Below are positions 9,177-26,834 of a DNA stretch of 28,955 nt, one piece after another. The stretch covers positions 1 through 28,955 of IMG/VR virus record IMGVR_UViG_3300022693_001825. One strand, 5' to 3'. The position numbers and the translations under genes were made by a program. Position 1 is the stretch's first letter, and each line of letters opens with the position of its first letter. This stretch comes from a virus. Under the pieces are notes generated by a model. It was not told where the DNA came from and searched no databases. It worked only from the letters and a program-made list of their open reading frames with translations.

Positions 9177-9190
9177 AAATATATGCATTT
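9177..9190 (-). promoter_or_regulatory. Late-type TATA promoter for the tail operon
   Basis: On the coding strand the box reads AAATGCATATATTT. Its proximal edge is 21 bases from the ATG at 9156, so the predicted start of transcription falls at or next to the ATG. No SD is present. Confidence 0.75.
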
Positions 9191-9203
9191 TTTAGAGTAT
9201 TAA

Positions 9204-10373
9204 CTAATTCCAAGGAGTGGTTCTTAGCATCCAACCGCCTTTAGTTTCTTCAAATTCTATTCCTTCTTCATCAATCCAAGTATTATTTACTTTGTCAGTT
9301 CTAGTATATTCTACTCCACTTATCGTTTTTACCATTGGAGGATTAAGAGATTCACCAGTTACTGCAATTCCATCATTAATGTAAAATATAGAGTCATTAC
9401 CATATTCATCACTTAGTTTTATGGCTATGACATTATACAATCCTGCTTCTCTATTTTGATACGTGAAAGTCACTTTTAGACAGTCTGCGTGTCCCATATC
9501 TCTCTCAGAGCATTTTATGTGGTCTGTTGTAGTTACATTCCAATTATACAACAGATTTTGATCATCAACAACTGTTAGTTTTTCCACTTTAGTATTGAAT
9601 AGTTCAATGTCGATTAGGTTTTCTGCATTATATATTAGAGTTTTAATATTTTCTAGTCCTAATCCAATAAGAATACCATCTATCTTATCTGTTCCCCAAT
9701 TGTCATAGATTAATAGCTCAATAGTATTTGTTTGATTAACTGTTGTGTGTATAGTCATGTTGGTGTGAAAATATTCAACGTTTATTGATTCTCCATTGAA
9801 TGTGAATCCATTATCAACTATTCTTACAGATTCACCTAGTCCAAGAGTAGGAGGTATGCGGTCTCTATTATCACTACTTCCTGTTGTTTTATTTCCAGTT
9901 GAATTTGTAATTATACAGTTCTTAAAATTAAAACTACTAGCACATGAAGTTTGTTGTGTAGTAGTATAGATTCCACTAAAACTATGTGCGTTAGATGAAG
10001 GATTTCCATATCCAAATACTGAACCTTGAAAGTTAACCAAAGTTTGATCATTGAAATCACTAACAGGCATACTTAGTGTGCCTTTGCAATCAACAACTTC
10101 AACTGTATGAGTACCATAACCAATTCCATAACTAAGTTTTTCAATAGAACCGTTACCGAATTGTTTCACGTTAGGATAATAGTATGAATCGTTTAAAGCG
10201 CCAACATATACTGCACATTTGTAATGACTTTCAAAATTGTAACTTATCATAAATGCTTGTGCAGATTCATCAAAATAAATTTCTAAATCATTCTCTGCAA
10301 CATGGGATGCAGCAGATGCATCATTGAATCCAAATAAAGAAACTAAAACAAAGAGTAGAATCACGTATTTCAT
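9204..10373 (-). CDS. Secreted protein with N-terminal signal peptide, 389 aa
   Basis: The N-terminus has a basic start, a hydrophobic core (VILLFVLVSLFGF) and an Ala-Ser-Ala site near residues 19-22, so it is a clear Sec signal peptide, and export through the host membrane is expected. The mature part is beta-rich, with four to six Cys residues (for example CAVYVG, VVDCKGT, SCASSFNFKNC, IKCSERDMGHADC) that could form disulphides outside the cell. There is no transmembrane segment at the C-terminus. The start has a strong SD (AGGAGGT, six bases before ATG) and overlaps the zinc-ribbon gene as ATGA. No family was recognised. A signal peptide is unusual among virion genes; candidates are a surface-acting or superinfection factor, or a lysis-related protein. 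Confidence 0.75.
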   Translation of the reverse strand: MKYVILLFVLVSLFGFNDASAASHVAENDLEIYFDESAQAFMISYNFESHYKCAVYVGALNDSYYYPNVKQFGNGSIEKLSYGIGYGTHTVEVVDCKGTLSMPVSDFNDQTLVNFQGSVFGYGNPSSNAHSFSGIYTTTQQTSCASSFNFKNCIITNSTGNKTTGSSDNRDRIPPTLGLGESVRIVDNGFTFNGESINVEYFHTNMTIHTTVNQTNTIELLIYDNWGTDKIDGILIGLGLENIKTLIYNAENLIDIELFNTKVEKLTVVDDQNLLYNWNVTTTDHIKCSERDMGHADCLKVTFTYQNREAGLYNVIAIKLSDEYGNDSIFYINDGIAVTGESLNPPMVKTISGVEYTRTDKVNNTWIDEEGIEFEETKGGWMLRTTPWN

Positions 10374-10504
10374 TTCTTTACCTCCTTACACTTTCTACTT
10401 CCGCATTTACATTTGGGTCTGTCATGTAATTTTTTTGCTTTAACATCTTTAATGGTTGTAAAATCATTTCCACAGTCTTTGCAGATTACGTGGGTTTTAG
10501 TCAT
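10370..10504 (-). CDS. Small zinc-ribbon protein, 44 aa
   Basis: Reading from the ATG at 10504 gives MTKTHVICKDCGNDF and a C-terminal half with KCKCGSRKCKEVKK. Cysteines at residues 8, 11, 32, 34 and 39 make a CxxC...CxC pattern typical of a zinc ribbon or rubredoxin-like knuckle. Lysine is abundant, so nucleic acid contact is possible. Both ends overlap neighbours as ATGA, with the small membrane gene upstream and the secreted-protein gene downstream, which strongly supports that it is translated. Confidence 0.7.
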   Translation of the reverse strand: MTKTHVICKDCGNDFTTIKDVKAKKLHDRPKCKCGSRKCKEVKK

Positions 10505-10605
10505 TTGTACCAAACCATCAATTGAATAAATGATAATGCAATCACCATAGTAATTCCAATAATAACTAAACCTCCAGTATATGTCTCTCCTTGACTCATG
10601 GTCAT
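10501..10605 (-). CDS. Small single-span membrane protein, 34 aa
   Basis: From the ATG at 10605 the protein begins MTMSQGETYTGG and continues into one hydrophobic helix, about residues 13-30 (LVIIGITMVIALSFIQLM), ending VWYK. A second ATG two codons later (10599) is possible. GGTGGT upstream of 10605 is a plausible SD. The stop overlaps the next start as ATGA, so three genes (membrane peptide, zinc ribbon, secreted protein) appear to be translated together. A holin-like or membrane-anchor role is possible but not shown. Confidence 0.6.
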   Translation of the reverse strand: MTMSQGETYTGGLVIIGITMVIALSFIQLMVWYK

Positions 10606-10658
10606 ACTACGACCACCTTGTTATTAAATGGCTCTACTATGACCATTCATGTTGTTTA

Positions 10659-12959
10659 TTATTGTAAAATTGGCTCAAAGTTGGTGAATGTCACATCAAC
10701 ACTATCTGTTCTATTGATAACTTGGACATTAAATTCATCATTAGTTTGTGCAAATATTGAATCACCAATAGTCATTGCAGTTTGTGCGTTTTGAGTAGTA
10801 AATGATTTTTCATTTTGGTTAGGCATCCTACCATTATTCTTTAGAATTCTTAATGAAATATCTTTATTATTTGCACTTGTAAAAATCAAAGGTAGAGTAA
10901 GATGCCCTTTAAAATCTTTAATTCCTACATATTTCCATTTTCCTTTAACTTTATCAATAATTTCCCAATCTTTATCAAAAGTAATCTTAACTGGTACAGG
11001 TGTAGCACCTCCACTTAAAACAATGTCACTCCACTCATCGAGAGTTAATGGTGTTGGTTCTAAATTTCCATTCATGTGAAAACTCATTTTAGATGCAGAG
11101 TTGAGTTCACCTGCTACATTAGCAACTGTAACATTTTTTGCCGTTTCACCAGTAAGTGAACCATCAAGTAATTTTCCTGTCTGGGCTATTGGTGCAGGTG
11201 AAGGAAAAGTAATATCAATAGTTAATGAATCATTAAAAGCCCCTATAACTCTAACAATTCCACCTTCATTGAAATCTATTGCTTCAGAAACTAAAACTGG
11301 TATTCCAGTTGTTAAGTTATGATTTACAGCAGCCAAGTTAGTCAAAAACATCGTAGCAGTTCCTCCACTTGTTTCAGTAGCTACAAACTGGTCTTGAATA
11401 TCATAAGAGTTAGCTGTGAGATTAAATATGTGGAATGAACCCAGATAATTTGTAGTACCTGCATGAAGTACACTTCTATCTTTTATAAAATCAGCAGGTA
11501 AATTAGCACTGGCAGTAACTGTAGTACCGTTTTGTCCGTTACTTGAATAAGTTAATGGTCCTGTTGCAGTACTGGTACCTCCATCAGTAAAAGCTTGAAC
11601 GAATCTATAAGCCTGCCAAGTACCAGTTGTATCAGTACCCTCAAATGGTATTTCAATCTCAATAGTAGTAGCTGTAAGTGCAGATACTATAAAATCATCT
11701 TGAAAATTTGTAGTATTTTGTATTTTAATTAATTGTCCATTATCTAAATTAGTGGCACCTACTGTTAGTAGGGTATGAGTTGCATCTCTTGGTGCTGGTG
11801 CTGCTGCAAATGCTGTTATCGTACCTGAATCAGCAAATGTTGAATCTTTGAAAATTTTACCACCAAATGTAGCAGATGAATCTGTAACAATATTACTATT
11901 AATGATGTTATTTGATGGATTAACATCTAACAAAATATCGTTTGCAAATAGAAATGGCTGAATATTTGAAAAATTTAGAGCTGAGGGTGTATCTAAACGC
12001 TCAAAAGGAATAGGTGCTCCTGTTGGTATGTAAAGTTCTTTTGAATTATTAACTTTCATAAAGGTGCTGCCGTTACCTTGACTTAGAATAATAGCAGTAC
12101 CCTGTAAAGGCTGAATGTCTTCCGTAACGAATCCATTAGTATAACTATTGTATGTTATGAAATCTACAGTATATATTAATCCCTTGAGAGTTCCCAAATT
12201 CTGAAAGTTTTGAAGTAATGATCTAGTAACTATTACAGCAGACAATGCCAAGTTGTATGTTCCTTCTATGTCAAATAATGTATTTGTACTAGAACCAGGT
12301 AAACCAGATATATCAAGTACATCAACATCATCTAAACTGAAAAGTCTCACATTTCTTAATTTAAGAAAAGTACCATTACCTGTCATGGAAAATTTAAATT
12401 TTGTTCTACTCTCAGACGTTATTGTTCCTGTATAATCATTAACTCCTTCATAACCCAAACCTAAAGGAATTGTAATAGATGTAAATATTTTATAATCTTT
12501 ATCCTCTAATATTCTGACAAGATCTCCAGTGTCAGGTCCCCCTGCAAGTACAAGGATTGGCGAACCTGTAAAATTTACTGCAGTAAATGTTGTCGGTGTA
12601 AGAATTGTAATAGTGATCTCTCCATCATAAGCAGGATTTGAGGAACCAGTAATTCGTAAATTATTATCAGTAGCATAAAGGTCTGCAGGCGTACCCGCAT
12701 CATATACAAAAGTAAAAAGAGCAGGCTGACCTACCGTACCACTTGTTGTAAAAGTTGCAGTATCATTAAATGGCATATCAGCAGTTTTGAAAACTTTTTT
12801 GACACCGTTAACATTTTGAAATTGGGTAAAATCATTAACAGTTATTGTTTTATTATTTAGTGGAGTAGGGGATGTTTCATTAGCATCTAGATAACATAAT
12901 CTAGATAAACCGTTTATAGCAGTCTCTATTGATCGTGTTGTCCATTTTTGGTCTACCAT
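10659..12959 (-). CDS. Repeat-built fibre or adhesin-like structural protein, 766 aa
   Basis: Beta-rich protein assembled from repeated units of about 70-90 residues. Each unit holds a GTTNY/GSSNP/GATNL-type turn followed by alternating strands and an end such as ETSGGTA or DTTGTW; about four copies can be seen between residues 60 and 600. The N-terminus (MVDQKWTTRSIETAINGL) is helical and may anchor it. The last 150 residues (after EWSDIVLSGG) form a separate beta domain. The repeat type also occurs in the tail fibre at 159-2975. Extreme Thr/Asn/Ile content fits an exposed appendage. It is the first gene of its unit, with a late-type box 22 bases before the ATG and no SD. Fibre, spike or capsid decoration are all possible. 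Confidence 0.6.
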   Translation of the reverse strand: MVDQKWTTRSIETAINGLSRLCYLDANETSPTPLNNKTITVNDFTQFQNVNGVKKVFKTADMPFNDTATFTTSGTVGQPALFTFVYDAGTPADLYATDNNLRITGSSNPAYDGEITITILTPTTFTAVNFTGSPILVLAGGPDTGDLVRILEDKDYKIFTSITIPLGLGYEGVNDYTGTITSESRTKFKFSMTGNGTFLKLRNVRLFSLDDVDVLDISGLPGSSTNTLFDIEGTYNLALSAVIVTRSLLQNFQNLGTLKGLIYTVDFITYNSYTNGFVTEDIQPLQGTAIILSQGNGSTFMKVNNSKELYIPTGAPIPFERLDTPSALNFSNIQPFLFANDILLDVNPSNNIINSNIVTDSSATFGGKIFKDSTFADSGTITAFAAAPAPRDATHTLLTVGATNLDNGQLIKIQNTTNFQDDFIVSALTATTIEIEIPFEGTDTTGTWQAYRFVQAFTDGGTSTATGPLTYSSNGQNGTTVTASANLPADFIKDRSVLHAGTTNYLGSFHIFNLTANSYDIQDQFVATETSGGTATMFLTNLAAVNHNLTTGIPVLVSEAIDFNEGGIVRVIGAFNDSLTIDITFPSPAPIAQTGKLLDGSLTGETAKNVTVANVAGELNSASKMSFHMNGNLEPTPLTLDEWSDIVLSGGATPVPVKITFDKDWEIIDKVKGKWKYVGIKDFKGHLTLPLIFTSANNKDISLRILKNNGRMPNQNEKSFTTQNAQTAMTIGDSIFAQTNDEFNVQVINRTDSVDVTFTNFEPILQ

Positions 12960-12980
12960 CTATCTAAGTGATGAGTGATA

Positions 12981-12994
12981 AAATATATGCATTA
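12981..12994 (-). promoter_or_regulatory. Late-type TATA promoter for the 766-aa protein unit
   Basis: Coding-strand box TAATGCATATATTT, whose proximal edge is 22 bases from the ATG at 12959. There is no SD in the short spacer, so a leaderless transcript is expected. Confidence 0.75.
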
Positions 12995-12997
12995 ATT

Positions 12998-14236
12998 CTA
13001 TGGTATTCTTTGAGGGTCCCCAATAGTGATAAATGCACTAGGTTGACTTTGATTGTTAAATTCTGTTGCGATTAAAGCTGGACTCTGTACTACATTGTGT
13101 TGTACTCTGATCTCATCAAATATGGCATCAATGGCTGTTACCTCGAAAGTTTTGCCAAAAGTCAAAGGTTCAGTATTGTTAAAAGTAAAACCACTGCCTG
13201 CGGTAAAAATATTAACTTGACCTTGAACTGCATCAATGTATTGGATGGCTTGTTTTGTAACAGCGTCATAAGTAAAAACAATATAATTTATTCCCGTGTT
13301 TTGTAGAACGGTTCTTGCAGCTCCACCATCATCCATAACTTGATCATTAAGATGTGTCCCATCATTCATTCTTGTTGTAAGTCCACTAACTTCGGCTCGA
13401 AAGTCATTCCACCATTGAAATCCCTTCTTTGTATCATTGAAAGATACTTTTTTCTCTAATAATCCGTAATGTTGGTCAAGTGAATTAAAATTTTCAGTCC
13501 AACAACTTAGAGTGAAACTTGTTGAACCAATAGCATCAATGCTAGTAGAACTAGGAATAGTTACAAATCCTCCAGTGTTTGTACGGTATGCTTTTCCTAT
13601 CTGACCATTTACAGAAGTTGGGCTGCCAGCAGTATCACCATCATTATTGTTTGATGTAGAATCCAGTATAGAACCAGGTCCAAATGAAGGGTCATTCATA
13701 TGCCACACACCTCTATACTTCTGGGGATCCCAAACATCTTCTGGATTTAATGCAGATGCATTTGGATTATCATAATACATGAACCACTCCGTAGTTGAAT
13801 CGAGTATGGGAATTGTTGTGTCAGAAATTAACGTTTGGGTTGGTTCATCCACAAATTCAATTTCTATAGGAAATATGACATCACCATCTACATTAACAAA
13901 TCTAATGTCCTGGCCTGCTGATTGTATGCGATTTTCAAAGTCAGGAAATACTTGGTTAAACAAAAATTTGTAGTTCGTATGTGAACCTTGAACCTTTGAT
14001 GGTACTACTTTAATCGGTACTCTACTCTTAAAGTTCTCATCAAACCAATTAGATGGAATACCCTCGTATATCATAATATTGTTATCTTCATATTGCATTG
14101 TATTTCCATCCTCAAAGAGCATACGAATAAAGGCCTCAGGTATAACACCAGTACCAAGATCCCTTCCTTGTGGCGGATTGTTAGTATTGCTGTTTAAATT
14201 TCGTGGTGCGTTTTGAGGAAGATAAGCTCTAACCAT
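12998..14236 (-). CDS. DUF2341/LamG-type adhesin-like virion protein, 412 aa
   Basis: After an Asn/Pro-rich leader, residues about 64-175 follow the DUF2341 pattern: W..ENFKSRVPIKV, then AGQDIRFVNVDGDV, IEIEFVD and WFMYYDNPNA. VWHMND and DSTSNNNDG then lead into a concanavalin/LamG-like beta-sandwich (about 180-400) with SFTLSCWTENF and a C-terminal FDEIRVQHNV. These folds often bind glycans or act in adhesion, so a role in host surface recognition is likely but not shown. ATG 14236 has GAGG seven bases upstream. Residues 17-23 (NTNNPPQ) recur at the same position in the adjoining 75-aa protein, suggesting a shared attachment leader. Confidence 0.7.
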   Translation of the reverse strand: MVRAYLPQNAPRNLNSNTNNPPQGRDLGTGVIPEAFIRMLFEDGNTMQYEDNNIMIYEGIPSNWFDENFKSRVPIKVVPSKVQGSHTNYKFLFNQVFPDFENRIQSAGQDIRFVNVDGDVIFPIEIEFVDEPTQTLISDTTIPILDSTTEWFMYYDNPNASALNPEDVWDPQKYRGVWHMNDPSFGPGSILDSTSNNNDGDTAGSPTSVNGQIGKAYRTNTGGFVTIPSSTSIDAIGSTSFTLSCWTENFNSLDQHYGLLEKKVSFNDTKKGFQWWNDFRAEVSGLTTRMNDGTHLNDQVMDDGGAARTVLQNTGINYIVFTYDAVTKQAIQYIDAVQGQVNIFTAGSGFTFNNTEPLTFGKTFEVTAIDAIFDEIRVQHNVVQSPALIATEFNNQSQPSAFITIGDPQRIP

Positions 14237-14237
14237 G

Positions 14238-14465
14238 TCATTTCCTCATTACCAATTTTTTAAGAAATGAGAAAATCTTTTGTTTCATGGTTAGTTGTAT
14301 CTTTGGTGTTACTACCTTTACTGTTGGTTTTACAATTGGTTTATTCACTACTGTAACCATTGGTCGTGGAGTTATTCCTCGTTTTCTTGGTGGGTCTTGT
14401 GGAGGATTATTTGTATTTGCAGTAATGCTTCTTTTAATCCCTTGAGGCTTAAAGCCGACAACCAA
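14238..14465 (-). CDS. Small basic Pro/Lys-rich protein sharing a leader with the adhesin, 75 aa
   Basis: TTG start at 14465 with AGGTG seven bases upstream, immediately after the stop of the previous gene. The protein is very basic (ending MKQKIFSFLKKLVMRK) with repeated Pro-Lys-Val units in the middle (KPIVKPTVKVVTPK). Residues 17-23, NTNNPPQ, are identical in sequence and position to the next gene's product, although the codons differ. This suggests that the leader is a conserved docking motif rather than a recent copy. The stop is one base before the adhesin ATG. Function unknown. Confidence 0.55.
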   Translation of the reverse strand: MVVGFKPQGIKRSITANTNNPPQDPPRKRGITPRPMVTVVNKPIVKPTVKVVTPKIQLTMKQKIFSFLKKLVMRK

Positions 14466-14467
14466 AA

Positions 14468-15085
14468 TTATGCACCTAACTGTATTTGATCTACTCTAAA
14501 TTCCTTTACACCAGTAACTGCTGTAGTTCTTACTAGAAAATCTAATGTATCACCAGGTCTTACACCAACGTCAAATCTATAGTAACCAGCAGTTTTCAAA
14601 TTAAAGTCATTATCACCATTGAATGTTAAAGGTTGAGCAGTTTGGTTAAACTCTGTAATTGTAACAGTAGGTACAGATGTAAATGGTGTTGTAGTATCAC
14701 CAGGTGTAATTGAGACAACTTCTCCTCCTTGAAGAATTGCAGTGGGTGGAGTAGATACCCCACCACCACCACCAGTAACTGCAACCACAGGTGCTTTGGG
14801 ATAACTAGACCCCGTTGCATCTACAGTAATACTTGTTATAATTCCATTAGTTAGTATAGCAGTAGCTGTTGCTCCTGTTCCTTTTGAGACACGTGTAGCC
14901 TCCAAGTGATAATCAGCAGCAGCCGTAGTTAGTGAAAAATAAACTCTAAATAATCCAGAATTTCCGTTTAACGATTCTGTAGTTACTACAATAGGATTAT
15001 TCAAAACAGATGCCCCGATAGCTACAGCAGTGCCTGTTCCTTTTACATCTACATCAATAGGATAAACCGAGCTTCGCAGTCCCAT
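14468..15085 (-). CDS. Beta-rich structural protein with Gly-Tyr module, paralogue A, 205 aa
   Basis: Starts MGLRSSVYPIDVDVKG and ends EFRVDQIQLGA. Both ends match the neighbour at 15128-15805 (MGLTTSVYPVDIE... and DVFRVDQIQIGA), so the two are tandem paralogues. In the middle (about 75-150) is the module GTGATATAILTNG, SITVDATGSSYPKAPVV and a second half-repeat with GGEVVSITPG and SVPTVTIT. The ends form a shell (GLFRVYFSL, then GYYRFDVGVRPGDTL) that looks like a jelly-roll or decoration fold interrupted by the module. It is first in its unit, with a late-type box 22 bases before the ATG. Likely a minor capsid, decoration or tail spike protein. Confidence 0.6.
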   Translation of the reverse strand: MGLRSSVYPIDVDVKGTGTAVAIGASVLNNPIVVTTESLNGNSGLFRVYFSLTTAAADYHLEATRVSKGTGATATAILTNGIITSITVDATGSSYPKAPVVAVTGGGGGVSTPPTAILQGGEVVSITPGDTTTPFTSVPTVTITEFNQTAQPLTFNGDNDFNLKTAGYYRFDVGVRPGDTLDFLVRTTAVTGVKEFRVDQIQLGA

Positions 15086-15106
15086 GAGAATAGAAATGAG
15101 TTATTT

Positions 15107-15120
15107 GATTATATGCATTT
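15107..15120 (-). promoter_or_regulatory. Late-type TATA promoter for paralogue A unit
   Basis: Coding-strand box AAATGCATATAATC, proximal edge 22 bases before the ATG at 15085. It lies in the 42-base gap after the stop of the upstream paralogue. Confidence 0.8.
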
Positions 15121-15127
15121 AGTGGAA

Positions 15128-15805
15128 TTATGCACCTATCTGTATTTGGTCTACTCTGAAAACATCTATTGCAACCAGATTATCTGCAGTAATATGTTCC
15201 TCAAAGAAAAAATTTATCAGATCACCAGCTCGTACACCAATATCAAATCTATAATATCCAGCAGACCTTAAAAGAAACTCATTATCTGCATTTAGAAAAG
15301 TATCTTGGGTATCGAACGGTGTACTTGTAATAAGCACTTTGGGTGGAATATTATATCCAGCACCAGGATTGGTAACATTAATTGATACTAATTCTCCACC
15401 ATTAATAACTGCTATAGCTTCTGCTGTCACTGTTGCACCAGTTCCTGTATTGTCAAAAGTTATATTTGTACCAGGAACCGTGGCTGATACTCCAATAGGA
15501 TAACCATCACCAGTAGCACTCATAATAATATTAGATACACCTCCATTCTCAATAACTGCATCTGCTTTAGCTCCAAAACCAAATTCACCACCTTGTCTAC
15601 TTGTGGAAACTGCCAACTCGTAATCACGAGGAGTTGCTGTTTGTAATGAAAAATATACTCTAAACAAACCAGATGATCCATTTAATAATTCTCTTGTTAC
15701 TGGAATTGACTCTTTTAGTAGAGCAGTATTAGGTGTGATAGGAAGTGCTACTGTTGGTAATTTTCTTTCTATATCTACAGGATAAACTGATGTTGTTAAA
15801 CCCAT
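15128..15805 (-). CDS. Beta-rich structural protein with Gly-Tyr module, paralogue B, 225 aa
   Basis: Tandem paralogue of the 205-aa protein. Both share the N-terminal SVYP motif, the strand GLFRVYFSLQTA, a C-terminal GYYRFDIGVRAGDLINF and the ending FRVDQIQIGA. Its centre carries two copies of the Gly-Tyr module (NIIMSATGDGYPIGV, and SINVTNPGAGYNIPPKV after GTGATVTAEA). The gene is alone in its unit, with its own promoter and a T-rich tract upstream that ends the capsid unit. Separate promoters for two adjacent paralogues suggest that both are made in quantity. Confidence 0.6.
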   Translation of the reverse strand: MGLTTSVYPVDIERKLPTVALPITPNTALLKESIPVTRELLNGSSGLFRVYFSLQTATPRDYELAVSTSRQGGEFGFGAKADAVIENGGVSNIIMSATGDGYPIGVSATVPGTNITFDNTGTGATVTAEAIAVINGGELVSINVTNPGAGYNIPPKVLITSTPFDTQDTFLNADNEFLLRSAGYYRFDIGVRAGDLINFFFEEHITADNLVAIDVFRVDQIQIGA

Positions 15806-15825
15806 AAAGTGAAAAGAGAATATTT

Positions 15826-15839
15826 AGTTATATGCATTT
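15826..15839 (-). promoter_or_regulatory. Late-type TATA promoter for paralogue B
   Basis: Coding-strand box AAATGCATATAACT, proximal edge 21 bases from the ATG at 15805. No SD. Confidence 0.8.
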
Positions 15840-15852
15840 AAAAAAAGAAAAA
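15840..15852 (-). terminator. T-tract terminator of the capsid unit
   Basis: On the coding strand the stop of the small zinc gene is followed after five bases by TTTTTCTTTTTTT, directly abutting the next promoter. T-rich runs without a hairpin terminate archaeal transcription, so this fits an end for the capsid transcript. Confidence 0.55.
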
Positions 15853-15857
15853 TTAGA

Positions 15858-16088: not shown

Positions 16089-16097
16089 ATTATTCAC

Positions 16098-17288
16098 CTA
16101 TACACTAAAGGCAGTGATTTTGAAAGCTCCTTCCAAATGTGCCTGCTTCACATCAAATCGTATTACCAAGTCAGATTCGTACAGTCCTCCAACAGAAAGA
16201 TCAAAGTTTTCTATTGTAAGATCTTCTCTCAATCCGACAACTTGTGCAACATCTCTCTTTGTTACGAGTACAGTTTTTCTTGGAATCTGTGGTGTTTCCC
16301 AAACATTTCTAAGACCTAATGCTTGTGCCAAGCCAGAATTATTAATAACATCTGTCGTGTCAGTTGGTCCAGTTATGAATCTACTCACGAATGGGTAAAA
16401 TCCATTTGTACCTGCATTTTTGACTGCGAGTGCAGCGTCTTGTGGATGGATAAACATTGTATCAGCTCTATTTCTTAAAACTCCTGGGAATCTTCCTCGA
16501 ATAACTTCTACTAATGCTTCAAACTCAGAGTTTGAAGGGTTTGTAGGAGTATCAAGGTCTGCTTTACTAGCAGTGTTATCAGTGCCAACAGTTGTGGTAA
16601 GCAAATCATCAATGATTCTTTTACCTGTCATAAAGTAAAACTCGTTTCCACCGTTCTTGAGCGATTGCTCAACAGCTAGGAAATTGTTGTCCTTTACATC
16701 GTTTCTGTTTACAGCTAATGTTCCTCTAAAAGAGTTGTTTGTACCTGAACAATCTAATTCTACAGGTGTAACCTTACCGCCAATTGGTGGTGGTGTTCCG
16801 CCTGCTTCTTTATAGATGTCAATACTTTTCTGATCACTTGAACTTCCACCTACGGTGTCTGTATATTTTGTAATAGGTACAGTCACTTTTGGTGTTGTCA
16901 TGTCAACAATCTTGGAATACTGTTTCCAGTCAGACCATGGCTCTGCGCCTTCGATTACTTCATCGAATATTTTCAATGCACTTAGAGTATTTGGTATTGA
17001 TACCGTCTCTCTAAGTTGCTGTCCACCTATGTATGGATTGGTTCTTGCATAATCACCTATACGCATACCAAATTGTCCAAACCATAGTTCTGGAAGGCTT
17101 GGATTTTGTGTCTCGTTTTGAAGTGAATGCTCACCTTTTGCAAAGAAAACATGGAATGGTGTTTCCCTAATGGGCTTCATGATGTCCGAAGGATTACCTC
17201 TTGCTTGAGCACTTAATTGTAGTGCTTCCTTAATGTGTGCCATTTCTGGCAATGCCAATAAGGATGCTCTAGTAAATTTAGAGGTCAA
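16098..17288 (-). CDS. Major capsid protein, HK97 fold, 396 aa
   Basis: Forms the icosahedral shell. The length, position after protease and scaffold, and C-terminal pattern fit the HK97 family: DTMFIHPQDAALAV (about 275-290), then TVLVTKRDVAQVVG and LTIENFDLSVGGLYESDLVI, ending HLEGAFKITAFSV. The N-terminal arm (about 1-60) and the extended loop region with WSDWKQYSKIVD precede it. The start is TTG at 17288, overlapping the stop of the cement-like gene (TTGA), with GGAGG twelve bases upstream. The next in-frame ATG is 15 codons later (MAHIKEAL) and is an alternative start, especially if the arm is trimmed. It is not the first gene of its unit, so it depends on SD initiation. Confidence 0.85.
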   Translation of the reverse strand: MTSKFTRASLLALPEMAHIKEALQLSAQARGNPSDIMKPIRETPFHVFFAKGEHSLQNETQNPSLPELWFGQFGMRIGDYARTNPYIGGQQLRETVSIPNTLSALKIFDEVIEGAEPWSDWKQYSKIVDMTTPKVTVPITKYTDTVGGSSSDQKSIDIYKEAGGTPPPIGGKVTPVELDCSGTNNSFRGTLAVNRNDVKDNNFLAVEQSLKNGGNEFYFMTGKRIIDDLLTTTVGTDNTASKADLDTPTNPSNSEFEALVEVIRGRFPGVLRNRADTMFIHPQDAALAVKNAGTNGFYPFVSRFITGPTDTTDVINNSGLAQALGLRNVWETPQIPRKTVLVTKRDVAQVVGLREDLTIENFDLSVGGLYESDLVIRFDVKQAHLEGAFKITAFSV

Positions 17289-17830
17289 GATATAGAGTTT
17301 CCTCCTTCTCTTTGAACATCAACTGCTATCATGTCAACGTCATTTACGGTTACAGATTGTAATGCAGTTGCAATTACAAATTGTATAGTAGCAGTTGTAC
17401 CTGGTGCGGCTGCTTTTTGTAGTTCACCTGATGTTGCACTCATTACGAGTTTATCACCAATGAATACTGCTGTACCAAGATTGCCATTGACTCTAGCTAG
17501 ACATCTGCCTTGTGTTACCACAACGACTCCTTGTCCAGCGCCATTAGTAGCTCTGAATTTATCATCAGTTACTGTTTGGCCATCACCGTATATGCCGTCT
17601 ACGTCTCCACCTACAGCTATACCATATACTAGATTAGTACCGAGTGCACCTGAAGGTGTGACTTGAGGAAGGATAGTTTTACTATCAAATGGTGTAGGTG
17701 ATACAGGTTTATCTAACGCTACAACATCTCCCATTACGATTGTTCCTTTGGAAATCAAATTAATTACAGAACTAGATTGGTGATCTATTGGACCACGTGC
17801 TAATCCTGGAAATCTATTTGTACTTCCCAT
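17285..17830 (-). CDS. Cement/decoration protein, DUF2190-like paralogue 1, 181 aa
   Basis: Related to the three tandem genes at 22757-24522. All share an N-terminal NRFPGL/NKFPGL, an IDHQSSSVINLI-type segment, YGIAVGGDxDG.YGDG, then a strand with V.TQGRCLARV or SRGNCLARV, and a C-terminal DVDMIAVDVQREG. The YGIAVGG and R.LARV pattern resembles DUF2190 capsid cement proteins, which coat HK97-type shells. This copy sits directly before the major capsid gene, consistent with stoichiometric assembly. A late-type promoter lies 21 bases before the ATG with no SD. I am confident of the paralogy, less so of the family name. Confidence 0.65.
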   Translation of the reverse strand: MGSTNRFPGLARGPIDHQSSSVINLISKGTIVMGDVVALDKPVSPTPFDSKTILPQVTPSGALGTNLVYGIAVGGDVDGIYGDGQTVTDDKFRATNGAGQGVVVVTQGRCLARVNGNLGTAVFIGDKLVMSATSGELQKAAAPGTTATIQFVIATALQSVTVNDVDMIAVDVQREGGNSIS

Positions 17831-17850
17831 AAGTTGTGTAACTATTGTTT

Positions 17851-17864: not shown

Positions 17865-17867
17865 TTT

Positions 17868-17879: not shown

Positions 17880-17882
17880 TGA

Positions 17883-18716: not shown

Positions 18717-18736
18717 GTTTTGTGTGATTAGTATTT

Positions 18737-18750
18737 GATTATATGCATTT
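18737..18750 (-). promoter_or_regulatory. Late-type TATA promoter for the scaffold-like gene
   Basis: Coding-strand box AAATGCATATAATC, identical to the capsid and paralogue A boxes, with its edge 21 bases from the ATG at 18716. It begins two bases after the stop of the protease gene. Confidence 0.85.
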
Positions 18751-18752
18751 TT

Positions 18753-19931: not shown

Positions 19932-20218
19932 CCACAACTAACTCCACTACAATCCTTAATTTGAGTTTCTAAAATTTGTCCTTTAATTAATTCCTCTATT
20001 GTTTCATTAGCTGCTTTGATAGAACCACATATTTTATTTGCAGACTCTTTGTCATGTCCTGCTTTTGCTTGATCAGATTGGCATTGTCCCCACGGATAAT
20101 CAGCTTCTTCTATTTCTCCTGTAGATGCATGACAGACAGCATATGGATTTACATCGTCACCTTTAGCTTTTACTTTACTTACACAGCTCTTGTATTTTGG
20201 ATGATGATCACCAGGCAT
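19907..20218 (-). CDS. Cys-rich small protein between portal and protease, 103 aa
   Basis: From ATG 20218 it reads MPGDHHPKYKSCVSKVKAKG, then NPYAVCHASTG, a WGQCQSDQAKAG segment with KICGSI, and ends CSGVSCGCQKKKRS. The NPYAVCHASTG motif and repeated short helical Cys units resemble small proteins or domains that sit beside portal and minor head genes in many phages. Seven or more Cys residues could bind metal. It shares a TAATG overlap with the 38-aa gene upstream, and GGAGTG nine bases before the ATG is a good SD. Starting at ATG 20218 rather than GTG 20230 avoids a longer overlap. Function unknown. Confidence 0.6.
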   Translation of the reverse strand: MPGDHHPKYKSCVSKVKAKGDDVNPYAVCHASTGEIEEADYPWGQCQSDQAKAGHDKESANKICGSIKAANETIEELIKGQILETQIKDCSGVSCGCQKKKRS

Positions 20219-20334
20219 TATTTGTAACACTCCACTATTTCTTCTGAATATTCATTTAGATAAAATCTGTGCAAGTTATTCTCTGGAATATCTACAATGT
20301 ATGATCCAAATTTTGTTCTTATCTTAACTATCAT
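20218..20334 (-). CDS. Tiny coupled gene after portal, 38 aa
   Basis: ATG 20334 overlaps the portal stop as ATGA, and the TAA overlaps the ATG of the Cys-rich gene as TAATG. The product begins MIVKIRTKFGSYIVDIPENN and ends EEIVECYK; it is likely a short beta plus helix fold. Perfect fit between two overlapping neighbours and no space otherwise explained support translation, or at least a coupling role. No function can be given. Confidence 0.55.
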   Translation of the reverse strand: MIVKIRTKFGSYIVDIPENNLHRFYLNEYSEEIVECYK

Positions 20335-22040
20335 TTCTTTTTCTTCGCCTCATATTGTCTACCAATGTTCCAGTCTTGTGATTGATTTGATTGATGGAAT
20401 GTTCCTGGCACAAATGGCGTATCCCTTGGGAATCGTGCCATACTATCATAGATAATATCATCCATTGGAGGCTCCCCTACGTTTTGGTTATTAAATTCAG
20501 GAATTTCACCACCACCCATGTCAGAATATGGTGGTAGTTGTAATGTTTCCTCTGTTGGATTTTCCTCTTGGCTGTTTTGATTTGCTTTGTCTATTGCTTG
20601 TGTGCCATTAGGATCATCATAAGCTATTTCTATTCCTTCAAAATCATTTACGCCAATTGGCATTCCAGCTTGTTCAAACATTTTCAATAATGTTTTAGGA
20701 TTCTTTGGTCCTGGAATAGATAGATACAATTCAATCAATTTGATATGTTGCTCTATTGGAATATCTTTCTTTTCTACTGAACCAAAGTTTAATTCAAATT
20801 TCAAATCATCCCACTCTACAGGAAGCATACCCATCATGTATTCTGGACCAAAGTAAGGATTAGATTCATACCATGGCTTGAAAAATAATTCGTTTAGTTG
20901 TACCTTTGCGTTTATGGTAAATGCAGATAGTCCTGTTTCTTTTTCGTCCTTTGCAGTTTCAGCGTTTGAATATGTAGATTGTGATTCTGATCCTTGCTTG
21001 CCTGAAAAGTCATTAACTGCTTTCATTATTGGTGATTGAACTGTTTCTGTAAATTCAGCAGGATTGAATGTTCTTGTGTTAGTTCCTAGTTCTTGGATGT
21101 CAAGGCCTGCCCCCGATACTAAATCCTGTCCTATTTGTAATTGCTCAACGAAACTTTGTAGTTGTGCTCTATCATCATCTGTTCCCCCCTTCGCGGTGTA
21201 AACATTTCTTGGAACGTAACGTTGTGATGCCATCTGCATGATGAACTGTATTCCATATTTTCTATTCAACATGGATGGCATTGTAACTTGTTGTGTCTTC
21301 TCACCAGATATGACCATATCAAATATTCTTTCACTAGTTGCAGAGACTCCAAAGCCTGTACCAAACACACTAGCATCAACTGGATTCCAATTGAAATGCA
21401 TTACCTCACCTGGATTGTGATATCCTTGATATTGACTACCTCTAAACTCATACTTGTATGGCTGACGTTGTCTATCCCACCATACTCTCACAAATGACGA
21501 TATTGGTATATGCATAAGATCAGAAAACTTTTGTACATTTCTAATTCCCATTCGTGGTTTATACACTGAATTACCATACCAAAGTAATTCTTTGATTAGT
21601 ATGGTATCTAATCTATCAAACTGCATGTTCTTTGTGAATTTCTCTATGTATTCAGTTAGGATTTCATTTGCAGTAGTGATATAGTGAGCTCCTCCTGTTA
21701 TTTGAGAAGATAGTCTATTCATTGCAAGTTGTATATCTTCGTCTTGTTGTAGTGCTATACTTTGAGTTTGAAATGGAATTGCAGGGACATCGAACGTGCG
21801 CGAAGTATATCCCTCACGTGAATAAGCCCCAACTGTAGATATTTCAGGCCCCCACACGGGTTGAGATAAACCAGGAGATAGTTCAGTTACTGGCATCTGC
21901 ATAAAATTCTGGATAGATTGTAAGGAGACTGAAGAATTATTTTGATGTGGAAACATCTTTGGTGGAGAAATAAATTCAGCTATTGATTGCCTGCTTTTTC
22001 TAATTGCAGGAACATAACTGGATTTACTAAGCCACTTCAT
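20331..22040 (-). CDS. Portal protein, 569 aa
   Basis: Forms the twelve-fold ring through which DNA enters. Features of portal proteins are visible: a basic N-terminus, a central LLWYGNSVYKPRMG strand pair, PISSFVRVWWDRQRQPYKYEF, GEVMHFNWNPVDASVFGTGFGVSA, the long helix region after RTFNPAEFTETVQ, and the conserved SQSTYSNAETAKDEKETGL segment. WYESNPYFGPEY follows near residue 390. The C-terminus is Asn/Pro/Asp-rich and disordered, ending EAKKKK. It is the first gene of the portal-protease unit, with a late-type box 21 bases before the ATG and no SD. It ends overlapping a tiny gene (ATGA). Confidence 0.85.
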   Translation of the reverse strand: MKWLSKSSYVPAIRKSRQSIAEFISPPKMFPHQNNSSVSLQSIQNFMQMPVTELSPGLSQPVWGPEISTVGAYSREGYTSRTFDVPAIPFQTQSIALQQDEDIQLAMNRLSSQITGGAHYITTANEILTEYIEKFTKNMQFDRLDTILIKELLWYGNSVYKPRMGIRNVQKFSDLMHIPISSFVRVWWDRQRQPYKYEFRGSQYQGYHNPGEVMHFNWNPVDASVFGTGFGVSATSERIFDMVISGEKTQQVTMPSMLNRKYGIQFIMQMASQRYVPRNVYTAKGGTDDDRAQLQSFVEQLQIGQDLVSGAGLDIQELGTNTRTFNPAEFTETVQSPIMKAVNDFSGKQGSESQSTYSNAETAKDEKETGLSAFTINAKVQLNELFFKPWYESNPYFGPEYMMGMLPVEWDDLKFELNFGSVEKKDIPIEQHIKLIELYLSIPGPKNPKTLLKMFEQAGMPIGVNDFEGIEIAYDDPNGTQAIDKANQNSQEENPTEETLQLPPYSDMGGGEIPEFNNQNVGEPPMDDIIYDSMARFPRDTPFVPGTFHQSNQSQDWNIGRQYEAKKKK

Positions 22041-22060
22041 GTGGTTTTGTTGCTTTCATA

Positions 22061-22074
22061 AATTATATGCATTT
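22061..22074 (-). promoter_or_regulatory. Late-type TATA promoter for the portal unit
   Basis: Coding-strand box AAATGCATATAATT, edge 21 bases from the ATG at 22040. It overlaps the stop codon of the upstream gene by one base. Confidence 0.85.
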
Positions 22075-22457
22075 TAGAGGTCTTTGATGTCTTTGCCTGT
22101 GGCTTCTCTAATTCTTGTTTTTAATGTTTTGTAAGAATAATCTCCACCCATTATTAGATCTCTATCACCTATAAACTTGAGAATATCCACTATCTTTTGA
22201 TTTCGTTCTATTATTTGAGAATCATAAACGCGTGCACCTTGTTCTCCTGTAACATTGATTATCACATCATGTTTATTCTTTGAATCTTGTACCTCTTGGA
22301 TTTGTTTATTGAGTGACTTTTCTTGTGTCTTTTTTACTGCTTGGAGGATTTGTTCTAGTTGATTTGAATTAACATTTAATGAAGGACCTACGATTTCTGA
22401 ATTAGACATATCTAACTCTCCTATCATTCCTGTTTTATCATCAATCTCGAATTTCAT
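22074..22457 (-). CDS. Unknown helical protein upstream of portal, 127 aa
   Basis: Starts MKFEIDDKTGMIGELDMS, followed by a coiled-coil-like helix rich in Gln and Lys (about 32-60, LEQILQAVKKTQEKSLNKQI), then a strand DVIINVTG and a C-terminal helical part with VDILKFIGDRDL and LKTRIREATGKDI. GAGG nine bases before the ATG is a good SD, so it is probably an internal gene or has a distant promoter. It ends inside the portal promoter. No family was recognised; position suggests a packaging or head-assembly accessory. Confidence 0.6.
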   Translation of the reverse strand: MKFEIDDKTGMIGELDMSNSEIVGPSLNVNSNQLEQILQAVKKTQEKSLNKQIQEVQDSKNKHDVIINVTGEQGARVYDSQIIERNQKIVDILKFIGDRDLIMGGDYSYKTLKTRIREATGKDIKDL

Positions 22458-22527
22458 TTTTTTTTTCCTCAGACGATTCTATTACAGATTACTCCACATA
22501 GATTGTTATCCGATGTATGGTGTATGA

Positions 22528-22704
22528 TCAATTAGTAATTAAGAGTTGCTCACGATATTCTTCTGTTAGTGGGTTTATTGCACATTTGTAGCATAATTGA
22601 TAATCCTCCCAATTTGAGGTATTATGAGTGGTTCTTACTACTCTTTTACATTCTGTACCGTATCGGTGACCCAGACACATTACCACGTTATTAAGAAATG
22701 CCAT
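22528..22704 (-). CDS. Small Cys-His protein, 58 aa
   Basis: Reads MAFLNNVVMCLGHRYGTECK and later WEDYQLCYKCAINPL, ending LLITN. Cys at residues 10, 19, 38 and 41 and His at 13 and 27 make a possible zinc knuckle. It fills most of the space between the 127-aa gene and the cement cluster. A TATA-like TTTATTAA about 23-28 bases upstream, with no SD, would give a leaderless transcript, but that box is weaker than the late-type ones. Moderate confidence because there is no homology to support it. Confidence 0.5.
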   Translation of the reverse strand: MAFLNNVVMCLGHRYGTECKRVVRTTHNTSNWEDYQLCYKCAINPLTEEYREQLLITN

Positions 22705-22756
22705 ATTTAGATATAAAAGTTGTTAATAAATTAGAAGAAAGTTAACAATTCTACCA

Positions 22757-23506
22757 TCATACTCGGAGATCTCCTTGTTTGACTACTTCAATTATTATTA
22801 TATCCAGATCATCTGTTGCTACTGAATCTAGACTTATACCCAATGTGTCTGCTCCTAGTTGTGAACTTTCAGATAAAACACCAGGTATTTCAGAAGCTGC
22901 TAATCCTGACGATATTGGCATAGTACCTATCCTATTAACAACCCTAGCAGGGCATTTACCTCTTGTTAAAACCCTTACAGTTTGACCTATTTCTGTGGTG
23001 GCTCTAGTTGTTGTACGTGGTGATCTTGTAATTCTTACTACAGGAGGTACAACAGTATCATAACCTGAACCAGCCATATTTACAGCAATACTTGTTACCC
23101 TACCATCTGTTAAAGTAGCAGTAGCTGTAGCACCAGAACCCACTGTTTGTGAACTATCAATAATCACATCTGGCACAGTTAGATACTCATTACCAGGAGC
23201 TACTACAGTAATTGATTGTACTTGAGCACCAGATATTGTTGCAAATGCAGCAGCGTCTGATCCTCCATCTTCCGCATAAAACCCATCAGCGTCACCGCCA
23301 ACAGCAATACCATATACTAATGGACTGCCTCTTATTCCAAATGATTCTTGTACTCTAGGAAGGAGTTCACCTTCTTGTATCGGAGAAACAAGTTCTACTA
23401 CAGCACCCATTTCAATAATCCCATCACCATCACAAATCATATTTTCTATTCCACTGTGAGTTAATGCACCATTTTGTAGACCTTTGATTTTATTAGTATT
23501 AGCCAT
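22757..23506 (-). CDS. Cement-like paralogue carrying an inserted Gly-Tyr module, 249 aa
   Basis: Same family as 23516-24016 and 24019-24522: MANTNKIKGL, ALTHSGIENMICD, VYGIAVGGDADGFYAED, then VRVLTRGKCPARV and DIIIIEVVKQG. Between residues about 90 and 166 it has extra sequence absent from the others. The extra part contains VQSITVVAPGNEYLTVPDV and TSIAVNMAGSGYDTVVPPVV around GSGATATATLTDG, which is the module seen in the proteins at 14468-15805. The flanking frame resumes at TRATTEIGQTV, matching TRATTAAGQTV in the next paralogue, so the insertion point is sharp. ATG 23506 has GGAT six bases upstream. Likely a decoration protein with an added exposed domain. Confidence 0.65.
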   Translation of the reverse strand: MANTNKIKGLQNGALTHSGIENMICDGDGIIEMGAVVELVSPIQEGELLPRVQESFGIRGSPLVYGIAVGGDADGFYAEDGGSDAAAFATISGAQVQSITVVAPGNEYLTVPDVIIDSSQTVGSGATATATLTDGRVTSIAVNMAGSGYDTVVPPVVRITRSPRTTTRATTEIGQTVRVLTRGKCPARVVNRIGTMPISSGLAASEIPGVLSESSQLGADTLGISLDSVATDDLDIIIIEVVKQGDLRV

Positions 23507-23515
23507 TGTATTATC

Positions 23516-24016
23516 CTATATGCTTAGCCCCTCTTTGACCATTTCTACTACTATCATATCTGTATCACCTACTGCTACATTGTTTAATGCTATAGCTGCT
23601 ACAAATCTTATCGCAGCAGGTGTTTTCTGAAAAACGCCAGGTATTCCACTTGCTACAAGTCTGTCACCAATTGATACTGCTAGACTAGTAACACCATTAA
23701 CTCTAGCTGGACATCTACCTCTAGTTATAATTCGTACTGTTTGACCAGCTGCGGTAGTTGCTCTAGTTACATCACTAGTAGATGCTGAGCCATCACCATA
23801 TATGCCATCAGCATCTCCTCCCACAGCTATGCCGTAAACATTTACAAAACCAATGGCACGTATTACACGAGGTTGGATCTCATCAGATAAAATAGGTGTA
23901 AGAACAAGCGATACTGCATCACCCATGTCTATCGCCTCATCACATATCATATTCTCAATTGCACTGTGAGCAAGTGCGCCACTCGATAATATACGATATT
24001 TATTTTCATTTGCCAT
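23516..24016 (-). CDS. Cement/decoration protein, DUF2190-like paralogue 3, 166 aa
   Basis: Begins MANENKYRILSSGALAHSAI, with VYGIAVGGDADGIYGDG in the centre, VRIITRGRCPARV and SIGDRLVASGIPGVF, and ends DTDMIVVEMVKEG. The tandem position between two relatives and the shared pattern mark it as the product of local duplication. The family is recalled as DUF2190-like capsid cement proteins. The start follows the previous stop by two bases and carries only a weak SD-like GTGAT. Confidence 0.65.
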   Translation of the reverse strand: MANENKYRILSSGALAHSAIENMICDEAIDMGDAVSLVLTPILSDEIQPRVIRAIGFVNVYGIAVGGDADGIYGDGSASTSDVTRATTAAGQTVRIITRGRCPARVNGVTSLAVSIGDRLVASGIPGVFQKTPAAIRFVAAIALNNVAVGDTDMIVVEMVKEGLSI

Positions 24017-24018
24017 AA

Positions 24019-24522
24019 TTATATCACTTTTCCTTCTTTTACTACCTCTACAGGTATCATATCAATATCAGTAACTGCTACTGTGTTTAATGCAATTGCA
24101 ATTACATCATTACCAGTACTTGCTTTTCTTAATCTTCCATCAATGTTTACTGTAAGCTTATCAGCTATTGCTACTGCTCCTCCAGTACCTGCAACTCTAG
24201 CTAGACAGTTTCCTCTACTAACTACTTTGACTCCTTGTCCTGCTCTGCTTGTTGCTTGAAATGCTAATGTTTGTGCATCTGCATCAGAACCGTTACCGTA
24301 ATCTCCATCCTCATCTCCACCTACTGCAATACCGTAAGACAATGGAGTGCCAGTCGTAATAGCACTAATTACTCTAGGAATATTTTCACCTGGCTTGAAT
24401 GCTGTAGTAACTAACTGTACTACATCGCCCATCCCTATGGGACCGTCAGCTATGAGATTATCTACTGCGCTATGAGTTATTGGACCATCATCAAGTCCAG
24501 GAAATTTATTAGTATTAGCCAA
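24019..24522 (-). CDS. Cement/decoration protein, DUF2190-like paralogue 2, 167 aa
   Basis: Begins MANTNKFPGLDDGPITHSAV and shows YGIAVGGDEDGDYGNG, VKVVSRGNCLARV, IADKLTVNIDG and DIDMIPVEVVKEG. It has the closest N-terminus to the copy beside the major capsid gene (both have FPGL followed by a GPI segment). The start is TTG at 24522, supported by the conserved MANTN beginning in the paralogue at 22757-23506. A late-type box lies 23 bases upstream without an SD. It heads a three-gene tandem cluster. Confidence 0.65.
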   Translation of the reverse strand: MANTNKFPGLDDGPITHSAVDNLIADGPIGMGDVVQLVTTAFKPGENIPRVISAITTGTPLSYGIAVGGDEDGDYGNGSDADAQTLAFQATSRAGQGVKVVSRGNCLARVAGTGGAVAIADKLTVNIDGRLRKASTGNDVIAIALNTVAVTDIDMIPVEVVKEGKVI

Positions 24523-24544
24523 TGATTAATGAATTTGATTATTT

Positions 24545-24558
24545 GGTTATATGCATTT
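24545..24558 (-). promoter_or_regulatory. Late-type TATA promoter for the cement cluster
   Basis: Coding-strand box AAATGCATATAACC, edge 23 bases from the TTG start at 24522. This is the largest spacing of the set and the only member paired with a non-ATG start. Confidence 0.8.
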
Positions 24559-24574
24559 TAGAGAGTTTGAGGCA

Positions 24575-24724
24575 TTATTTATCATTCATAATTTTCTTTA
24601 GTTCTTTTCTTAAACTATAATATTGACTAGAATATGGTCTTGCGAGTAAATTTTTTATTTGTTTTTTGAATTGTAAATGTTCGTATAAAAAATCGGAAGC
24701 ATATTTCATATATTTTCTAAACAC
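24575..24724 (-). CDS. Small basic aromatic-rich peptide after terminase, 49 aa
   Basis: From GTG 24724 it reads (M)FRKYMKYASDFLYEHLQF and ends RKELKKIMNDK; an ATG five codons on (24709) is the alternative start. It is helical with many Lys and Tyr residues. It lies between the stop of the large terminase and the next late promoter, filling an otherwise empty gap. No SD is visible, so translation would need coupling to the terminase. It could be a chance frame. Confidence 0.4.
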   Translation of the reverse strand: MFRKYMKYASDFLYEHLQFKKQIKNLLARPYSSQYYSLRKELKKIMNDK

Positions 24725-24734
24725 ATTAAATTAT

Positions 24735-26456
24735 TTAAAATCTACGATTAACTACAGTCATTGTAAATCTACCAGAGGAATATTTTGACTTTCCTATCAT
24801 ACAGTATATGATACTCATCATGGAATCTTTTGGATGGTTGAACTCTTTTTTGGCTTTCTGTCTGCCATCCTCTACAATGTTTTCCTGGTCTTCTGCTAAA
24901 TCTTTTCTGGTAGTTGCACAAAAGTCATCAACTAAAAATCCACACTCCCAGTCGTTTTTCATTGGGATTATAAACTGAGGTTGTGGATTGTCAAACTCGT
25001 CTGGAACTGTAGTTCCTAACATATCAACAAAGTCCTGGATAATCTCTGATTTATCCACTGTATGGTGTGCAAGATTTTCTCCAATATTTTTATCTGTATC
25101 CATCTCTTCACTTTTGGTGTGAGTCTCCTGTGTTAGATTACCTGATGTCCAACACCCCATGACTCTACCGCTGCCAAGTCCCGCAATTTTCTCACCAGTA
25201 GATGTGTATCCTCCTTTTTGCATCATAGTTACTTTGTCTTTTCCATATCCCATATCTGCAACACAATAGTCGCATCCGTATTCGTTGAATCGTTTAACAA
25301 AGTGCGCAGCTTGATCATATTCATGTTCTTCTGGTCTACTGTCAATAAATGCAAGCTCATACCTGTTTGTCTTTTTCCAATATATGATTACAGCACCTAC
25401 TGTCTTTGAAGCTGCGGGTCCAGACCCCCAGTCAATTCCTAGAAATACATACACATCATTATTCTTTTTAATCTCTTGGACTTGCTCTCCAGTTAACATC
25501 ACCTTTTCTTTATCGTAACAAGCTTCAACCATCTCAGGAGTTATCGGTCTGCGCATTGCCTTATAGAATACTCCCTCAACGTGTGATGATACGATACTTT
25601 TAGGATTATGTTTCTCTTGGAACTCTATTGATACATCAGGGCGAGTCTTGTATAGATTGATGGCATCGTATATGGTTAATGGTATTCTTGCAAAGATTGA
25701 TTGTGACATGTGATACCCACTGAACTCTTTATTCTCTGGATGTGCAGCTACCCACTTACCAGATACAATGTCTGTAGGATTTTCATTAGATAAATTACCT
25801 TCATCATCAAATGTTAGTTTATCACGCCAGTGTATATCATCAAAGACCCATTCCTTCTGGTCGGATCTTTTCCACATCTTGTGCCACTCTGATCCTGCTT
25901 CACCACCAATGCCAAGATAGTATGATTGTCCTCTGGTGTGGGTCATTGTGTATAGAGCTGTGGTTCTAAATTGTAAATCCTGATACTGGCATTCATCAAA
26001 TACCATAACACCATTCGTCATTCCTTGGACGTTGTTGTATTCGTTCTCATCAGTTCTCACATACACTACTGAATTATTCACCAGGTTAATCTCACCAACT
26101 GCAGCTCTGCCCTGTGGTAGAAACTCTGCAAGCATTGAATTTTTAATCATTGTGTCTTTTCTGAATCGTTGTTTAGACCAAGCTGATGCCCTGTCTGATC
26201 TATCCACTACATAGGTTACTTCTGCGTTATCATGTGATGTTGCATAGCAACCAATAATGTCAGTTCCAAATGTACTCTTGAATGTTTGACGGGCATTGAC
26301 TGCCACTATATTTGGTGATTTATCCTCATACACATCTATCCAGAATGGCTCCCAGTCAAAAGTTCTTTTGATTCGACCAACGTATGGTCGAGCTGTATGA
26401 ATCCATTTTAGATTGTTCTTTGGTAGGTTGGGTAATACTTTAGCACCCATGAACAT
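24735..26456 (-). CDS. terL: Terminase large subunit, 573 aa
   Basis: Packaging motor: an N-terminal ATPase drives DNA into the prohead and a C-terminal RNase H-like nuclease cuts it. The Walker A-like loop is ARQTFKST (about 55-62), a deviant form common in terminases. Walker B with the catalytic Glu is VMVFDE (about 150-155). Nuclease acidic residues are in FLGIDWGSG (Asp about 342), CVADMGYGKD (Asp about 401) and HPKDSMMS (Asp about 544). The length is normal and all motifs are intact. The start has GAGGT upstream; MFMG could start at the first or the third codon. It follows a candidate small subunit. Confidence 0.92.
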   Translation of the reverse strand: MFMGAKVLPNLPKNNLKWIHTARPYVGRIKRTFDWEPFWIDVYEDKSPNIVAVNARQTFKSTFGTDIIGCYATSHDNAEVTYVVDRSDRASAWSKQRFRKDTMIKNSMLAEFLPQGRAAVGEINLVNNSVVYVRTDENEYNNVQGMTNGVMVFDECQYQDLQFRTTALYTMTHTRGQSYYLGIGGEAGSEWHKMWKRSDQKEWVFDDIHWRDKLTFDDEGNLSNENPTDIVSGKWVAAHPENKEFSGYHMSQSIFARIPLTIYDAINLYKTRPDVSIEFQEKHNPKSIVSSHVEGVFYKAMRRPITPEMVEACYDKEKVMLTGEQVQEIKKNNDVYVFLGIDWGSGPAASKTVGAVIIYWKKTNRYELAFIDSRPEEHEYDQAAHFVKRFNEYGCDYCVADMGYGKDKVTMMQKGGYTSTGEKIAGLGSGRVMGCWTSGNLTQETHTKSEEMDTDKNIGENLAHHTVDKSEIIQDFVDMLGTTVPDEFDNPQPQFIIPMKNDWECGFLVDDFCATTRKDLAEDQENIVEDGRQKAKKEFNHPKDSMMSIIYCMIGKSKYSSGRFTMTVVNRRF

Positions 26457-26507
26457 TTTACCTCGTATTCCTTTTAGCTGCGCTTCAAATGATATTGAAA
26501 TGGTTAC

Positions 26508-26801
26508 TCACTCCGTTAGTTCTATAGCAAAATATTTTCGCTTTACCTCGTCAGGTAGTCTATCAATTATCTTAACAATATCATCTAATTGTTTTTGAAT
26601 CTTATAATTTCTAAAGATACCCAGTGTGGCATTGGCTATCTGGCCCATTGCATTAACTAGATTTTTGTGATTATCATCAAAGTCTTCGATGCCTTTACCT
26701 TTAACATGATTATTGTATTTTTTTGTTAGATCCATATGAACACTATAAAGATCTTCATACATATTTTCTAACGAGTCTGACATTGATTGTATAGCGTTCA
26801 T
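26508..26801 (-). CDS. Candidate terminase small subunit, 97 aa
   Basis: All-helical small acidic/basic protein (MNAIQSMSDSLENMYEDLY, MGQIANATLGIFRNYKIQKQ) placed directly before the large terminase in the same unit. Size, helical nature and position fit a small terminase subunit, which selects viral DNA, but no helix-turn-helix can be named. It has its own late-type promoter 21 bases upstream and no SD. An unrelated regulatory or assembly protein is possible. Confidence 0.5.
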   Translation of the reverse strand: MNAIQSMSDSLENMYEDLYSVHMDLTKKYNNHVKGKGIEDFDDNHKNLVNAMGQIANATLGIFRNYKIQKQLDDIVKIIDRLPDEVKRKYFAIELTE

Positions 26802-26821
26802 ATATTATGAAGGGGTTGGTG

Positions 26822-26834
26822 AGATATATGCATT
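26822..26834 (-). promoter_or_regulatory. Late-type TATA promoter for the terminase unit
   Basis: Coding-strand box AATGCATATATCT, edge 21 bases from the ATG at 26801. It overlaps the stop codon of the upstream gene. Confidence 0.75.

Follow-up and report, generated by a model that had tools for sequence, protein, structure and literature searches.

A near-identical box precedes nine virion transcription units of a tailed virus, and in viruses of related lineages the orthologous genes have another box at this position. Judged from the sequences, this box is a late core promoter specific to its lineage, whose copies change together; the host of the virus is very probably an ammonia-oxidizing archaeon (AOA; Nitrososphaeria). 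The window, which is the whole stretch of DNA analysed here, is a complete IMG/VR record of 28,955 bases with nearly all of its genes on the minus strand. Within the virion module, family matches were obtained for the terminase and one neck-type protein, and the other genes, including the MCP, portal-type and neck genes, were named by gene order and by their relatives. No close relative of this virus was found among the phage records searched; IMG/VR contains some 60 relatives, most of which are fragments. The gene before the MCP gene (17285-17830) resembles a paralogue of the three tandem genes at 22757-24522, with which it shares a MANTNKF..DGPI start, and the relatives of both hit the same loci.

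The motif TGCATATA occurs ten times in the window, always on the minus strand (shuffled sequences: mean 2.0, maximum 6). Nine of these copies stand before start codons, all on the coding strand, and the tenth is located within the portal-type gene (21507-21514). The predicted start codon follows the last base of TGCATATA at a distance of 23 nt in six cases, 24 nt in two and 25 nt in one; nine of ten copies at this spacing would be expected by chance with a probability of about 3e-22, and a chance origin of the pattern is excluded. As a 12-mer, the box reads exactly AAATGCATATAA in six cases, TAATGCATATAT in two and AAATGCATATAT in one, and the nine units that it leads together cover the virion module (Table 1). 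The initial annotation, which had described nine near-identical boxes on the coding strand before virion units, is borne out by this count and by the shuffles. Its nine sites are right, with starts given about 2 bases low, and its spacings of 21, 22 and 23 bases (six, two and one cases) are exact in their counts, corresponding to 23, 24 and 25 when measured from an edge 2 bases earlier, the last base of TGCATATA.

Table 1. Late boxes and other features of the window, with the distance from each box to the predicted start codon.
Feature	Position	Strand	Remark
Late box TAATGCATATAT	26824..26835	-	23 nt to start; leads unit 26801 (97-aa protein, then terminase)
Late box AAATGCATATAA	24547..24558	-	25 nt to TTG start of 24522 (paralogues of the MCP-operon leader gene)
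Late box AAATGCATATAA	22063..22074	-	23 nt to start of portal-type gene 22040
Late box AAATGCATATAA	18739..18750	-	23 nt to start of 18716
Late box AAATGCATATAA	17853..17864	-	23 nt to start of 17830 (operon with MCP)
Late box AAATGCATATAA	15828..15839	-	23 nt to start of 15805
Late box AAATGCATATAA	15109..15120	-	24 nt to start of 15085
Late box TAATGCATATAT	12983..12994	-	24 nt to start of 12959 (large fibre-like gene)
Late box AAATGCATATAT	9179..9190	-	23 nt to start of 9156 (neck/tail operon)
Large terminase	24735-26456		PHROG terminase family match
Small zinc-pattern protein	22528..22704	-	candidate conserved viral regulator, inferred by exclusion

An SD 4-mer was found before none of the nine box-led genes versus 13 of the 18 inner operon genes (P=0.0006). 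Because the box-led genes are without SD and the inner genes usually have one, the box-led transcripts are probably leaderless, as had been proposed from the box position. The box spans about -36 to -24 of the predicted start codon, which is also where the TATA-zone signal of the hosts is found: upstream regions of host genes (215 intergenic regions, about 400 kb, from six AOA genomes) showed a T-then-A bias at -28 to -23, a weak signal with which the TATA part of the viral box coincides. The box spacing and this host signal both fit the earlier assignment of a predicted archaeal promoter at the TATA position.

In lineage A, that of the window virus, 29 boxes in six records follow a near-invariant AATGCATATA, with a single T replaced by C, and lie 23-26 nt from the start. 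Beyond the box the flanks are unrelated, while the distance from box to start codon is fixed. G006, a relative of 41 kb from the same lineage, has its terminase gene divided between the two record ends, as in a circularly permuted genome; there, five of five correctly spaced boxes lie before virion genes and none before early genes, so the restriction to virion genes claimed for the window extends to this relative. Virus specificity, which the initial annotation had suggested, was likewise supported. The 16 AOA genomes searched (about 21 Mb) contain 18 copies of AAATGCATATAA, or about 0.9 per Mb versus about 207 per Mb in the window, which makes the box about 240 times rarer there, and none of the 18 copies lies 22-24 nt before an ORF. 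Before 215 host genes, the class A box does not occur more often than its reversed sequence. Among the IMG/VR stretches that contain the extended box AAATGCATATAATCAAA, only relatives of the window virus have it in front of an ORF at a distance of 23-25 nt.

The different boxes that other lineages bear at the same place before orthologous virion genes fall into class B (AATACCTTTAA), class D (AACACTTGTATA), class E (TTAGTTCTCTTT), class F (AACAGTTTTATCC) and others, assigned by eye and, apart from A, B and E, resting on few sites per genome. Class B genomes possess 5-13 boxes each before virion or virion-like genes, usually at 22-23 nt. Box agreement was 9.8 out of 12 within a genome, and between genomes 7.8 for orthologous versus 7.7 for non-orthologous promoters, with shuffled genome labels giving 7.62 (sd 0.17), indicating that genome membership explains most of the likeness and promoter descent almost nothing. 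The box classes follow the MCP tree, on which they need 8 changes (minimum 7, shuffled mean 23.9), a small number of class changes overall; class A forms one clade with full support, and both it and class E are nested close to B/C-type viruses. An unsupervised (de novo) motif search returned clear repeated boxes in classes A, B and E only, and the motifs obtained in G004, G005, G006, G007, G009, G013 and G014 were not above controls, although the boxes of G006 are plain by direct count. That related viruses bear different but equally uniform boxes at this position suggests a separate late-gene switch in each lineage. The ATGCAT palindrome, to which the initial annotation had given weight, does not hold as a general feature, since the corresponding boxes of related viruses lack a palindrome; ATGCAT is peculiar to the lineage of the window virus, and its reading as a general dimer site was dropped.

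As a whole, these results are likely to be best explained by a late core promoter combined with one trans-acting specificity per virus. The box would constitute the core promoter (BRE and TATA position) of the late units in a tailed virus of ammonia-oxidizing archaea, and initiation would probably occur at or next to the start codon, with first genes leaderless and inner genes translated via SD (the 5' ends are predicted ones). Within a virus the late promoters remain almost the same, and as a set they differ from those of its relatives. The simplest cause would be a single trans-acting specificity in each virus, reading the full box, about -36 to -24, because the boxes are uniform within a virus, differ between viruses and overlap the TBP/TFB site. 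By themselves, TBP and TFB accept much more variation than these near-invariant ten bases show. The factor would most likely be virus-encoded, acting with or instead of host TFB/TBP, or else be a particular host TFB paralogue; slightly more than half of the remaining probability is assigned to the virus-encoded factor.

It is possible, though we would not expect it, that a paralogue of host TFB reads the boxes as ordinary TATA/BRE promoters, with the lineages adapted to different TFBs or hosts and no viral factor involved. Several TFBs would be available for this purpose, as AOA have several TFBs and one TBP (PMC12448741), the box lies at the BRE/TATA position, and a viral TFB or TBP was not found by Pfam. 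The late repeats of the haloarchaeal virus HF2 showed activity in a host lacking other viral genes (PMC8707807), and the class B box is somewhat host-like, with no more than 3 mismatches to it in 23 of 215 host promoters (5 for the reversed control). However, the class A box shows no such excess over its reversed copy before host genes, and the 18 copies in 21 Mb of host DNA include none at promoter spacing. Such a reading also needs a host regulon, and none was seen in the AOA genomes examined, which may not include the true host species. Furthermore, viruses of different box classes stem from shared metagenomes, such as 3300023223 with classes A, D and E, though several hosts are possible there, and ten near-invariant bases are known to exceed what TBP and TFB require.

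Recent copying, with the boxes spread or homogenised by recombination and their exact letters without regulatory meaning, would account for the near identity of the copies within a genome. It is nevertheless very improbable, as the flanks are unrelated while the start-codon spacing is fixed, and as the box is kept at the same genes in six records across 55-85% protein divergence.

A phage of bacteria with a bacterial -10 element, a reading favoured by the distant relationship of the terminase to those of Bacillus phages (24-27% identity), is hardly credible for box-led genes without SD and in view of an archaeal-type PCNA encoded by relatives, distant MCP homologues in 4 of 400 Nitrososphaeria genomes and DNA matches to the same genomes. 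The exonuclease gene (PD-(D/E)XK, PHROG exonuclease; 28001-28335) has DNA matches in dozens of these 400 genomes, mostly at 65-75% identity, and is therefore common to virus and host lineages, and a terminase piece of 53-60 bases matches three of the 400 at 83-89%. A pattern scan of named genomes found no provirus with the window MCP. MCP, PCNA and DNA matches are consistent with the archaeal host that a leaderless core promoter calls for. Just before the exonuclease gene, at 28711-28774, two 26-nt arms are 88% complementary and are accompanied by TTGTACA repeats.

That the box is turned over en bloc favours a dedicated factor, which is the natural inference from these promoters. The search for a viral TFB or TBP that had been suggested at the outset gave no homologue: no Pfam match to TFIIB or TBP was obtained in six frames of 17-19 viral records, and zinc-ribbon matches stayed below the cut-off. 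Two genomes of about 41 kb each that belong to the same lineage and carry the same box, G006 (L079-L081) and G419 (L297-L299), have the virion module in common at about 44-87% identity, and their early proteins are unshared except for the 97-aa protein adjoining the terminase. Their early halves are almost entirely different. The near-absence of common early proteins is awkward for an early-encoded viral factor, and because the early halves differ, a conserved viral factor would have to sit in the shared module. The small zinc-pattern protein listed in Table 1 is encoded in this module; it is present in 18 of 19 records with an invariant Cys pattern, and the upstream region of its own gene is without the late box. 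Its predicted structure (mean pLDDT 74) had no PDB match, nor did its sequence, and the predicted fold is uninformative. Upstream of this gene (window 22704; L012:1340-1460; L010:2850-2978), TTATTAATAAC-type repeats and a TTTTATA stretch are found in this lineage. A winged-helix protein of G006 (L080:7195-7452) was also considered and rejected, as it has a 50% identical relative in G420, where the box is present, and none in G419, which has the same box; an IMG/VR scan with this protein returned only G006 itself. Tentatively, and with rather low expectation, we suggest that an unrecognised viral initiation factor may replace or retarget TBP/TFB at the late promoters, its specificity having changed together with nine or more promoters per lineage. 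If true, this would be an orthogonal transcription switch in archaea, and the zinc-pattern protein would be one place to look.

The class II late intergenic repeat promoters of HF2, a haloarchaeal tailed virus, have a TATA about -26 from the start site and are unique in the genome (PMC8707807). HF2 resembles the window virus in having near-identical repeated promoters before late (morphogenesis) genes (PMC8707807), and in the window and G006 such repeats were found before late genes only. However, HF2 has two late copies only, one of which drives a single 35-kb transcript, whereas here there are nine or more short units per genome; the HF2 repeats are conserved across the virus genus (PMC8707807), whereas here related lineages have replaced the core box, which is conserved inside lineage A only. 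In SIRV2-type viruses of Sulfolobales, one virus-specific regulatory sequence is also common to many genes, but these are early anti-defence genes rather than late virion genes, and their BRE/TATA core, near-constant among viruses, also serves host genes, with the variation lying in the flanks (PMC11065993). In the viruses studied here it is the core that varies, and a constant core with variable flanks before early genes was not observed. By analogy, the nearest functional parallel is the late promoters of beta- and gammaherpesviruses with their viral TBP mimic, where late expression of virion genes by TBP/TFIIB-type machinery is specified by an altered TATA-type element (PMC4893493, PMC12529657). 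In the herpesviruses the viral TBP-like factor is known, whereas here a TBP- or TFB-like factor was not found by Pfam in 17-19 records, a very divergent or unrelated one being possible, and no homology is implied.

A single search of open-access literature gave no promoter study on tailed viruses of ammonia-oxidizing archaea. A core promoter that is uniform within a virus but varies as a set among its relatives indicates a specificity of late transcription for which a direct search can be made, and the boxes of the lineages give natural box/factor combinations to test. The box also marks late operons in uncultured viruses. Finally, we also noticed an A+T-rich divergent region at 27390-27500, between a SWIM zinc-finger gene (+27502) and the leftward genes, which contains repeated TACTATA and TATAGTATACTATA elements. 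This region is quite unlike the late box and is perhaps an early control region.
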